Shown here one piece after another: positions 14,273 to 39,257 of a DNA stretch of 64,000 bases. Each line of letters starts with the position of its first letter. The stretch's first letter is position 1. The notes below the pieces were generated by a model, which worked only from the letters and a program-made list of their open reading frames with translations, had not been told where the DNA came from and did not search any database. This DNA is from Weissella hellenica. Its GTDB lineage: Bacteria > Bacillota > Bacilli > Lactobacillales > Lactobacillaceae. Location of the stretch: contig NZ_BJEG01000003.1 in NCBI RefSeq assembly GCF_005405545.1, forward strand, positions 1 through 64,000, read 5' to 3'. The position numbers were made by a program, and so were the translations under genes.

Positions 14273-14500
14273 ATAAAAAGCGCCCCGTTATCGATTTTTA
14301 GCCGATAACGGGGCGCTTACACGCGGTACCACCCGAATTTATAACATATTTGTTACACTCAAAATCCCTTAACGCGGGAAACGTTGCTACTTAAATCGTA
14401 ACACACTCCGAAATAGTACCGTTTATTTTATGTTGTCAACTTCCACCCCCGTTGACTCTCTGTAAACATAATTTATTAAACGACGTGTTTTCTTCAACGT
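14273..14500 (-). promoter_or_regulatory. T-box riboswitch leader of thrS
   Basis: The minus strand holds the T-box sequence GGGTGGTACCGCG (about 14322-14335), directly followed by a terminator hairpin of AGCGCCCCGTTATCGGC and its complement with a T-run (14275-14318). Upstream lie AGAGAG and the GTCAAC/GTTGAC stem with GGGTGGAA between, typical of stem I. Uncharged tRNA-Thr should favour antitermination. A specifier ACU inside GGUACUAUUUCGGAG is plausible but not proven. The surrounding 322-bp gap holds no gene. Confidence 0.9.
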
Positions 14501-14517
14501 TTTTATATTCGTTTATT

Positions 14518-26041: not shown

Positions 26042-26080
26042 AAATAAACCACATCTCTATTAGAGACGTGGCTTATTATA
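26042..26080 (-). terminator. ddl terminator
   Basis: The hairpin CCACGTCTCTAATAGAGATGTGG is followed by TTTATTTGTT on the minus strand. It ends ddl and separates it from the yqeG promoter. Confidence 0.8.
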
Positions 26081-26088
26081 CTTTATTA

Positions 26089-27237
26089 TTATTTTGCTAC
26101 TTCAGCATTGTATTGCTTTTCACCCATACGCTCTTCGCCAAGTGAAACGAAATCGTATGATAATTTATTTTGGCGTTCGAATTCAGCCATACCATATTGA
26201 ATTAATTCATCAATCAGATTGGTATAACTAATTCCTGAAACTTCCCACATTTGTGGATACAATGAAATATTAGTAAATCCAGGTAATGTGTTGGGCTCAC
26301 CCAAGTAAGGAACACCATTATTATCAATCATGAAGTCCATACGTGTTAGGCCAACAAGTCCTAATGCCTTGTATGCACGCAAAGCCATATCAGTAATTTC
26401 TTCAGCTAATGTATCATCCATCTTGGCGGGTAATTCAAATACCATACCAGACGCATCAACGAATTTGTTATTGTAATCATACCAAACATCATCTTCTGGC
26501 AAGACAATTCCACCTAAACGTGAAGCACGTGGGTTTTCATTTCCTAAGATTGAGATAAAGACTTCGCGTGGCTTATCCAAACCACCCTCAACCAAAACTT
26601 TATAATCATATTGGAATGAATCTTTCAACGCAACAGCATACTCTTCAGCATTAGTTACACGCGAAACCCCCACTGATGACCCTTGACTAGCAGCTTTAAC
26701 AAACAAAACATCTGAGTTTAGTTTAGCTGTCAATTCATCAAAAGTGTAGTCCTTATAATTTTGGTCAGTTACCAAAACGTAATCAGTGTTACGAACACCT
26801 GCTTGATTTAGAATACGCTTCGTCAAATCCTTATCAAATGACATCGCTGATGCGGCAATTCCCGGCCCCAAATATGGCTTCTTTAGCAAACGGAACAATG
26901 CTTGCAACGTACCATCTTCACCCAAGTTTCCGTGAACAACTGGGTAGAAGAAATCAATGTTGGCCATCTCACTCAATGCAGCAATTGGTGTCAATGGGTT
27001 AGTCATATCCATCTTTTCCTTCGCTGCAGCAACAATTGCATCTTCATCTTCCCCTTCAAAGACACGCCATGAATCTTTTGAGTTCATCATAATACCGTCT
27101 TTTGAAATCAAAAAGACAGTGACATCGTACTTTTCTTTATCCATAGCATCATAAATGTTATGTGCTGACCGTTTTGAAACATCGTGCTCAGATGAATTTC
27201 CACCAAACAACATTGCAATATTTAATTTTTCTGACAT
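26089..27237 (-). CDS. ddl: D-Ala--D-Ala/D-Lac ligase, Phe-type
   Basis: A 382-residue ATP-grasp ligase for the terminal dipeptide or depsipeptide of peptidoglycan. It starts MSEKLNIAMLFGGNSSEHDVS at 27237 after GGGGAG. The GNLGEDGTLQ region, KAASQGSSVGVS ATP loop and GEPNTLPGFTNIS C-terminal signature are all present. The omega-loop reads YDYNNKF: the residue that is Tyr in D-Ala-D-Ala enzymes is Phe259 here, as in Leuconostoc and vancomycin-resistant lactobacilli (Phe261 in L. mesenteroides). I therefore predict D-Ala-D-Lac activity. Confidence 0.95.
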   Translation of the reverse strand: MSEKLNIAMLFGGNSSEHDVSKRSAHNIYDAMDKEKYDVTVFLISKDGIMMNSKDSWRVFEGEDEDAIVAAAKEKMDMTNPLTPIAALSEMANIDFFYPVVHGNLGEDGTLQALFRLLKKPYLGPGIAASAMSFDKDLTKRILNQAGVRNTDYVLVTDQNYKDYTFDELTAKLNSDVLFVKAASQGSSVGVSRVTNAEEYAVALKDSFQYDYKVLVEGGLDKPREVFISILGNENPRASRLGGIVLPEDDVWYDYNNKFVDASGMVFELPAKMDDTLAEEITDMALRAYKALGLVGLTRMDFMIDNNGVPYLGEPNTLPGFTNISLYPQMWEVSGISYTNLIDELIQYGMAEFERQNKLSYDFVSLGEERMGEKQYNAEVAK

Positions 27238-27283
27238 ATTGGTTCTCCCCTTGACTGTCAAACTGATTTAATATAGAAACCTA

Positions 27284-27315: not shown

Positions 27316-28299
27316 TTACATCAAAAGATCCCTGGACTCGTTCAAATAATCAAAAATTTCTTTAGGCAAATTATCGCGCATCATGAGACCTTGTAAAAAT
27401 CTTTGCTGATTATATAAACAATGCCATGCCCCCTCAGATTCTGGTTGCATTTGCCGTGTCATCTCTTGACGCCACTGTTTTAATTGTTGTAAAAAGTACT
27501 TTGCATATAATTCATTTGTATTAACTAAATCTGTAATCAGACCAATCAAACGACGATTTTCACCCATAATAAGCGGCATATCCAACCGTTTTAATTTTTC
27601 AATTAAAATGGTCAACAAAAATATTTTATCCGCCCGTTGCACCTTATCGTCATGCATAAATTCTGACATCAAATTACCAATGTGCATAAAAGCATGGGCC
27701 CAGCCTTTATCACCAACAAAGCCACGCGTATCACGTTCTAAGGCAATATACGTTGCAAGGTTAATGAATAACGTTTGTTCTGCTTCATCACTAATAAATT
27801 TATTACTGCCTTTACGATTGGCATGCCGTAACATTGACAAGACAAATATCGCAAACGAGCGATAAAATACGCCATCATTATCTAGTTCATCGATATGACT
27901 AAACAACACATTATCTTGAACAAGACAACGTACTATCAAAAATAATTGATTAGTTTCAAACACACCATTTTGTAATCCATCACTGATAAAAAAGAAAGCG
28001 CCTTTATCCCGCAATGTCGGATCAGTTTGACGTAGGCTACTTAATAAATCTAAAACGTCTTGATTGCTAATTTTAACAGATTGACCAGCATACATCATTT
28101 GCTGCCATTCTAAAATACGTTGTTTAATATCTTCTGCTTGTTCATCTGCTAATTGCACAACTTGGCTAGGTTCATCATAATCAATTTGATCAAGTAAATG
28201 ACCAACTTGACTACCTAGTGAATTTAATAATTTACCTGCATAGACTTGTTCGTGAAGCAACTTTAATTCATCACGAACGTCGTCAATCGTATATTCCAT
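27316..28299 (-). CDS. DUF2785 domain protein
   Basis: A 327-residue protein of the DUF2785 family, identified from GFVGDKGWAHAFMHIGNLMSEFM (about residues 195-217) and the surrounding helical repeats. It is soluble, helical and of unknown function. I place the start at 28299 (MEYTIDDVRDEL) after AAGGAAAGG. The open frame extends 33 codons further and mimics a lipoprotein signal (FFILNGC), but that part has no SD and runs through likely promoter sequence. It has no obvious partner; ddl follows. Confidence 0.8.
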   Translation of the reverse strand: MEYTIDDVRDELKLLHEQVYAGKLLNSLGSQVGHLLDQIDYDEPSQVVQLADEQAEDIKQRILEWQQMMYAGQSVKISNQDVLDLLSSLRQTDPTLRDKGAFFFISDGLQNGVFETNQLFLIVRCLVQDNVLFSHIDELDNDGVFYRSFAIFVLSMLRHANRKGSNKFISDEAEQTLFINLATYIALERDTRGFVGDKGWAHAFMHIGNLMSEFMHDDKVQRADKIFLLTILIEKLKRLDMPLIMGENRRLIGLITDLVNTNELYAKYFLQQLKQWRQEMTRQMQPESEGAWHCLYNQQRFLQGLMMRDNLPKEIFDYLNESRDLLM

Positions 28300-28428
28300 T
28301 CTTTGACGCCTTTCCTTGTTATTATTTGTCTCATTTAGATTACCACAACCATTTAAAATAAAAAACACACTAATGGTAACAAATATAAACTTGTACACTA
28401 AATTAATTTCCTAAAGTCGCTTACTCAT

Positions 28429-36299: not shown

Positions 36300-38966
36300 T
36301 TACACTTGCGCATCTTGCAACTGTGCTAAACGATTGTGAGTTGCTTCTACTTTGGTTTCCCAATCCGCCAACTTTTCACGTTCTGCAGCGACAACAGCCT
36401 CTGGTGCGTTATTGACAAACTTTTCATTACCTAATTTACCATTAGCTCGTTTTACTTCACCTTGGAACTTTTTGATTTCATCTTGCAATCGGGCAATTTC
36501 ATCATTCAAATCAATTAATTCAGCCAATGGCACGTAAATTTCCGCACCAGAAATAATTTGGGTCATAGCCAAATCAGGTGCTTTAATATCAGCAGCAATT
36601 TGTAAATCCTTTGGCTTCACAAAGCGGTTAATATAATTAACATTTTCCTTAAAGATACGTTGAAGGTTATCATCACTTGTCTTAATTAAGATATCAATTG
36701 TCGTTGACATGGGTGCATTTGCTTCTGTACGAATAGTACGAACTGCTTTAATCAAGTCAGTCAAACTGTTAAAGTCTATTTCAGCTTGGTCATCATCCAA
36801 ATCTTGCTTAACAGTTGGGTAAGCAGCTGCAACAATTGTTTCCCCATCATGTGGCATTTCTTGCCAAATAGCTTCGGTAACAAATGGCATAATCGGGTGT
36901 AATAGACGTAACGTATTATCTAATACATAAGCCAAAATTGCTTGCACCGTTTTTTGTGCTTCTTGGTCATCACCATTCAAAGTTTCCTTCGTCATTTCAA
37001 TGTACCAATCAGCAAAATCATTCCAAATAAAGTTGTAAAGAGCTCGGCCAGCTTCACCAAATTCAAACTTATCAAAATTCTTGGTTACAACGGCAATTGT
37101 CTTATTCAAGCGTGACAAAATCCACTTATCGGCTAATGAGAAATCAGCCGTATTTGTTGGTAATTCTGCTTGAGTATCATCAGATAGGTTCATCAAAACA
37201 TATCGTGATGCATTCCAAATTTTATTAATGAAGTTCCATGCTGAATCCATTTTTGTGTATGAAAAACGCACATCTTGCCCTGGTGTTGAACCAGTTGCCA
37301 AGAACCAACGCAAAGCATCCGCACCATACTTTTCAATCACATCCATTGGGTCAATCCCATTACCCAATGACTTTGACATTTTACGGCCTTGTTCATCACG
37401 AATCAATCCATGAATCAAAACATTTTTAAAAGGACGTCGCCCTGTAAATTCTTTAGACTGGAACATCATACGTGCAACCCAGAAGAAGATAATATCATAG
37501 CCAGTTACCAACGTATTCGTTGGGAAATAACGCTTAAAGTCTTCTGCATCCGTATCAGGCCAACCCATTGTTGAAAATGGCCACAAAGCTGATGAGAACC
37601 ATGTATCTAGCACATCTGAATCCTGTGTCCAATTTTCACTATCTTTAGGTGCTTCCATACCAACATACATCTCACCAGTCTCTTTGTGATACCATGCTGG
37701 AATTTGGTGTCCCCACCATAGTTGACGTGAAATAACCCAATCATGAATATCGTCCATCCAACGTGTAAAAGTTCCTTCAAAACGTGGTGGATAGAAGTCA
37801 ACCCGATCTTCTGATTTTTGCATATCTAATGCTTGTTCAGCTAATGGTTGCATCTTAACAAACCATTGTGTTGATAAACGTGACTCAACTTGCACACCAG
37901 TACGTTCTGAATGTCCGACTGCGTGTACAATTGGTTCAACTGATAACATCCAGTCACCCGCTTGCAGATCAGCGACAATCGCTTTACGAGCCTCAAAACG
38001 ATCCATACCAACATACTTACCAGCACGTTCGTTCATTGATGCATCTTCATTCATAGTATTGATTCGTTCCAAATCATGGCGATTACCCACGCCAAAGTCA
38101 TTTGGATCATGTGCTGGTGTAATTTTAACCATACCAGAACCAAATTCAGGATCAACATATTCATCAGCAATAATTGGTACTTCGCGATTCACCAATGGTA
38201 CTAATACTTTTTTACCGACCAATGCTTTGTAGCGCTCATCTGAAGGGTGCACAGCTACGGCCACATCCCCAAACATTGTTTCAGGACGTGTCGTTGCAAT
38301 TTCAACATAATGCTTACCCTCAAAAGTTGTATCCTCATCCACAAATGGATATTGCACATGATAGAAGGCCCCTTCATCATCTTGGTGAATAACCTCAATA
38401 TCAGATAAAGCTGTTCGTGCCTTAGGATCCCAGTTGATGATGTATTCACCGCGATAAATCAATCCTTTTTCATATAACGTCACAAAGACCTTACGAACTG
38501 CTTCAGACAGACCATCATCTAAAGTAAAACGCTCACGATCATAATCTAGCGAAAGACCTAACTTACCCCATTGTGATTTTATTGTTGCAGCATATTCATT
38601 CTTCCAATCCCAAACTTGGTCAACAAACTTTTCACGTCCTAAGTCATAACGTGAAATATTTGATTCTGCTAAACGTTGTTCAACCTTAGCTTGCGTTGCG
38701 ATACCTGCATGATCCATACCAGGCAACCATAACGTATCGAATCCTTGCATCCGCTTTTGACGAATCAACATATCTTGCAAAGTTGTATCCCATGCATGAC
38801 CTAAATGCAGCTTACCCGTTACATTTGGTGGTGGAATAACGATTGAATAAGGACGAGCCTTTTTATTTTCGGATGGCTTAAAACGCTTTTCTTGCACCCA
38901 CTTATCATAACGGCCTGCTTCAACAGCGGTCGGGTTGTACTTACCAGGCATATCAATTTCTCGCAT
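36300..38966 (-). CDS. valS: Valyl-tRNA synthetase
   Basis: An 888-residue class I synthetase. HLGHAWD (about 56-62) is the HIGH motif and [12 protein letters not shown] the KMSKS loop; the editing domain CP1 lies between, followed by the anticodon-binding domain and a C-terminal coiled coil (from about 815) that contacts tRNA. The start [11 protein letters not shown] at 38966 fits AAGGAG eight bases upstream. A T-box leader precedes it. Confidence 0.97.
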
Positions 38967-39009: not shown

Positions 39010-39245
39010 GCAATAAAAAAGCCCCAACCATACAACTATCTGTATGATCAGGGCGACATTATCGCGGTACCACCTGAATTAGAGTTTAATTCTCTATCTC
39101 ATTTCGACTTAACGCGTCGTCACGTTATCAACTACTCATTTCACTGATAAAGCCCACTAGTTACCTTCCAAGTATATTAATCAAAATCTTCCACCAAAAT
39201 GATTTTGTCGCTGGTAATAATTTTACTTGTACTCTCTAGTACATT
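39010..39245 (-). promoter_or_regulatory. T-box riboswitch leader of valS
   Basis: AGGTGGTACCGCG (about 39063-39076, minus strand) is the T-box, directly followed by a terminator hairpin GCCCTGATCATACAG...TTGGGGC with TTTTTTAT (39013-39054). Stem I has TACTAGAGAGTA and an ATTTTGGTGGAA distal part. GUA (39162-39164) in AAGGUAACUAGUG is a good valine specifier candidate. The surrounding 345-bp gap holds no gene. Confidence 0.9.
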
Positions 39246-39257
39246 GCTATGAAAGCA

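Follow-up and report, generated by a model that had tools for sequence, protein, structure and literature searches.

The housekeeping ligase (Ddl) of Weissella hellenica carries phenylalanine where D-Ala-D-Ala ligases of the Salmonella DdlA type carry tyrosine, and we consider it very likely (a probability of roughly 0.94) that this Phe-type Weissella enzyme makes D-Ala-D-Lac, in which case the peptidoglycan precursors would have D-Ala-D-Lac termini with poor affinity for vancomycin. We infer this specificity from Leuconostoc and Lactobacillus enzymes that have been characterised. The prediction is supported and well founded, because Phe259 falls on Phe261 of the Leuconostoc enzyme, the gene is the only ddl of its genome, the genome has the capacity to make D-lactate, and the published Phe/Tyr rule has been checked in W. 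paramesenteroides; it is also an ordinary prediction, established at genus level, and not a discovery.

Results

The ddl gene and its product

The predicted D-Ala--D-lactate-type ligase is encoded on the minus strand at positions 26,089-27,237 of the window (the whole stretch of DNA that was analysed, 64,000 nucleotides), where the first-pass annotation had placed it without naming the strand, and comprises 382 amino acids and a stop codon. An alternative TTG start for a longer open reading frame lies at 27,261, but the ATG at 27,237, which had also been the earlier choice, is the likely start because a ribosome-binding site read directly from the DNA, AGGGGAGAA (approximately 27,245-27,253, minus strand), sits ~7 nt upstream of it. 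Just past the stop codon, a consensus match to an intrinsic-terminator-like hairpin of 16 pairs (26,043-26,077, minus strand) suggests that the ddl transcript would end there. Both Pfam domains of the protein were complete and over cut-off (PF01820 Dala_Dala_lig_N, 1-121 of 121; PF07478 Dala_Dala_lig_C, 2-204 of 204), as expected from the earlier description of the enzyme as intact. A profile search of the whole 1.81-Mb genome identified this gene as the sole full-length ddl, and a second copy was rejected on that ground; the other PF07478 matches were weak, partial and located in other open reading frames, a pattern expected of other ATP-grasp enzymes.

Phe259 occupies the diagnostic position of the omega-loop

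The motif YDYNNKF starts at residue 253 of Ddl, which makes its phenylalanine residue 259 (codon at 26,461-26,463, minus strand, computed as 27,237 - 3 x 258 = 26,463). In D-Ala-D-Ala ligases, the tyrosine hydroxyl contributes to a network of hydrogen bonds at the site for the second substrate. When the protein was compared with solved structures using phmmer, its best match was the L. mesenteroides D-Ala:D-Lac ligase (DdlLm; PDB 1EHI; E = 1.1e-125, 423 bits), followed at 262 bits by a D-Ala-D-Ala ligase. The match to DdlLm was full-length, with an identical WYDYNNKFVD loop and complete catalytic motifs, and the phmmer alignment paired WYDYNNKF gap-free with the WYDYNNKF of 1EHI, whose counterparts are K260-F261, so that F259 corresponds to F261; Salmonella-type DdlA enzymes (3i12, 3q1k) carry tyrosine in this column. 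The first-pass annotation had assigned Phe259 to the diagnostic position and had named an alignment as the test that could refute this, and the alignment to 1EHI upheld the assignment. Its further argument, that 259 is only two residues away from 261, was weak by itself. The offset arises from small indels that leave the numbering here a net two residues shorter at the loop. Identity with the Leuconostoc enzyme is incomplete around the C-terminal active-site motif, where Met326 is replaced here by Ile324, which is also the residue of Tyr-type DdlA enzymes.

Distribution of Phe and Tyr among Ddl enzymes

Phenylalanine was found at this position in all 27 Weissella genomes in which ddl was read, and this invariance argues that Phe259 is not there by chance; tyrosine stands there in the five Ddls that were sampled from elsewhere in the order Lactobacillales, outside this family. 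The nearest genome compared was that of W. sagaensis, at 99% identity for the protein and ~92% for the DNA over 7.1 kb, and next came W. bombi and W. paramesenteroides. The Ddl of W. paramesenteroides (ATCC 33313) is 90% identical to the one studied here and has the same loop, the same Phe and the same gene order; both it and the other Weissella Ddls differ from the enzyme studied here by species-level substitutions only. From W. sagaensis to W. confusa, the seven Weissella loci nearest to this one among those compared all keep the order permease, DUF2785 gene, ddl, yqeG, yqeH. The DUF2785 gene, directly upstream of ddl (27,316-28,398, minus strand), encodes a protein of unknown function whose C-terminal part matches PF10978; it adjoins ddl across Weissella yet evolves much faster, with 57-60% identity to its counterparts in W. 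cibaria and W. confusa as against 81-82% for ddl. Elsewhere in the window we observed two T-box leaders on the minus strand (14,306-14,506 and 39,046-39,253), the latter upstream of a valyl-tRNA synthetase gene (36,300-38,966).

In a tree of 90 Ddl rows, whose root is unplaced, in which long branches meet and from which 1EHI itself was left out, the W. hellenica enzyme fell within a clade of 57 rows (support 98/100) that all carry Phe and that includes Limosilactobacillus, Apilactobacillus and Lactiplantibacillus. The sister of this clade is a five-row Tyr clade, also of Lactobacillaceae, and on the far side of a long branch is a second, distant Phe lineage of 14 rows (~30% identity); the tree requires several switches between Phe and other residues. 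Because these Phe-type lineages are deeply separated, with Tyr-type enzymes between them, we tentatively suggest that Lactobacillaceae may have acquired or lost Phe on several occasions rather than once; the gene studied here is unremarkable within the larger Phe clade. The divergent second Phe-type lineage has the loop GWYDFEHKF, and extra Ddl paralogues occur in four Lactobacillaceae genera (g27, g35, g41 and g47), in three g47 rows of which the diagnostic column holds Gln, Arg or a gap; these sequences come from loci L112-L125 and L104-L111 of other Lactobacillaceae genomes.

Could the phenylalanine be incidental, and the enzyme an ordinary D-Ala-D-Ala ligase in a host that is sensitive to vancomycin or resists it by another route? 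Such a reading would fit the isoleucine in place of Met326 and the omega-loop residues, which apart from Phe resemble those of Tyr enzymes. It would also fit the automatic naming of the protein, which counts against D-Lac specificity: NCBIfam calls it only 'D-alanine--D-alanine ligase' (a subfamily-level name), and on the NCBIfam D-Ala--D-Lac equivalog, a model that appears to be built on acquired VanA-type ligases, it scores 204 bits, far below the cut-off of 550. We nevertheless regard this reading as very improbable, given that Phe tracks resistance in published tests, one close Weissella relative included (PMC5996685), that it is invariant across the genus, and that the closest solved relative of the protein is by far a D-Ala:D-Lac ligase.

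The rest of the pathway

If the enzyme does make D-Ala-D-Lac, the exchange of Tyr for Phe would withdraw the tyrosine hydroxyl from the hydrogen bonding around the second substrate, D-lactate would then replace D-alanine as the second substrate, and Ddl would join D-Ala to D-lactate. The D-lactate would be supplied by a fermentative D-lactate dehydrogenase; one is present, its best matches among solved structures being D-lactate dehydrogenases, all at 1e-138 or better (1j49, E = 4e-143), and a published W. hellenica genome is reported to have genes for D-lactate only (PMC6667553). MurF, of which the genome has one over cut-off, would attach the depsipeptide to UDP-MurNAc-tripeptide, and a VanX-like M15 peptidase would probably remove leftover D-Ala-D-Ala, leaving D-Ala-D-Lac-ended precursors to which vancomycin would bind poorly.

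The single M15 peptidase of the genome (PF01427, the D-Ala-D-Ala dipeptidase family) is encoded on a contig other than that of ddl and has the motifs SPHNTGGSVD and EWWH. It passed the Pfam M15 cut-off at 88 bits and reached 41 of the 320 bits of the VanX equivalog NF033115; though divergent from VanX proper, it may work like VanX or Aad. Aad, a VanX-like dipeptidase, contributes to D-Lac selectivity in L. plantarum, according to work cited in PMC5996685. PF01427 was absent from five of 28 Weissella genomes (G002, G005, G008, G015 and G017), all five with a Phe-type Ddl, which rules out a VanX-like peptidase as an obligate partner of such ligases and makes the dipeptidase an accessory. A search of the genome for S11 D,D-carboxypeptidases (PF00768) gave no match, and the same search found PF00768 in six control genomes, in five of them over cut-off; this absence might suit a wall that does not need its D-Ala-D-Ala ends trimmed.

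Serine racemases and acquired van genes

VanT is a long protein bearing a membrane domain. Neither of the two alanine-racemase-family genes of this genome (386 and 510 amino acids) shows such a domain when inspected by eye, no VanT-type serine racemase was seen among them, and this Ddl falls far short of the cut-offs of the D-Ala--D-Ser ligase models. These observations make very improbable the proposal of a 2023 W. paramesenteroides genome paper, which reports a vanT match in all of its strains, that Weissella resistance is due to a serine racemase of the VanT type and to precursors ending in D-Ala-D-Ser (PMC10102382). The vanT match is probably, and most simply, an alanine racemase, and we prefer the explanation through Ddl because both alanine-racemase-family genes here are unlike VanT. 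By eye, the 510-amino-acid open reading frame (L126:1042-2574, contig C4) appears to be a fusion of an AcpS-like holo-ACP synthase N-terminus to an alanine racemase; the second, separate alanine racemase lies on contig C10 (L127).

An acquired VanA/VanB-type cluster is ruled out, since Ddl fell below every Van cut-off, and far below those of the VanA-, VanB- and VanD-type models, and no vanHAX operon adjoins ddl, whose neighbours are the DUF2785 gene, yqeG, yqeH and the permease gene. Acquired VanA-type ligases share with this Ddl the ligase family and the predicted product, but they belong to another subfamily, and here ddl lacks an adjoining vanHAX and the VanX-like gene is on a separate contig.

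Discussion

A 2018 paper (PMC5996685) set out the Phe/Tyr rule, extended it to Weissella and checked it in W. paramesenteroides by vancomycin susceptibility, and for this reason the finding is not new: the reading of this ddl as Phe-type is right and was already known at genus level. In that work, Weissella carries Phe, W. paramesenteroides DSM 20288 is among the strains checked and is vancomycin resistant, and the substitutions F261Y (Leuconostoc) and F258Y (L. reuteri) alter activity or the vancomycin phenotype (PMC5996685).

Beyond annotation, the value of the result is small. It argues against crediting Weissella resistance to the 'vanT' match (PMC10102382), and it supports viewing vancomycin resistance in food-associated Weissella as intrinsic, chromosomal and genus-wide, rather than acquired or transferable.
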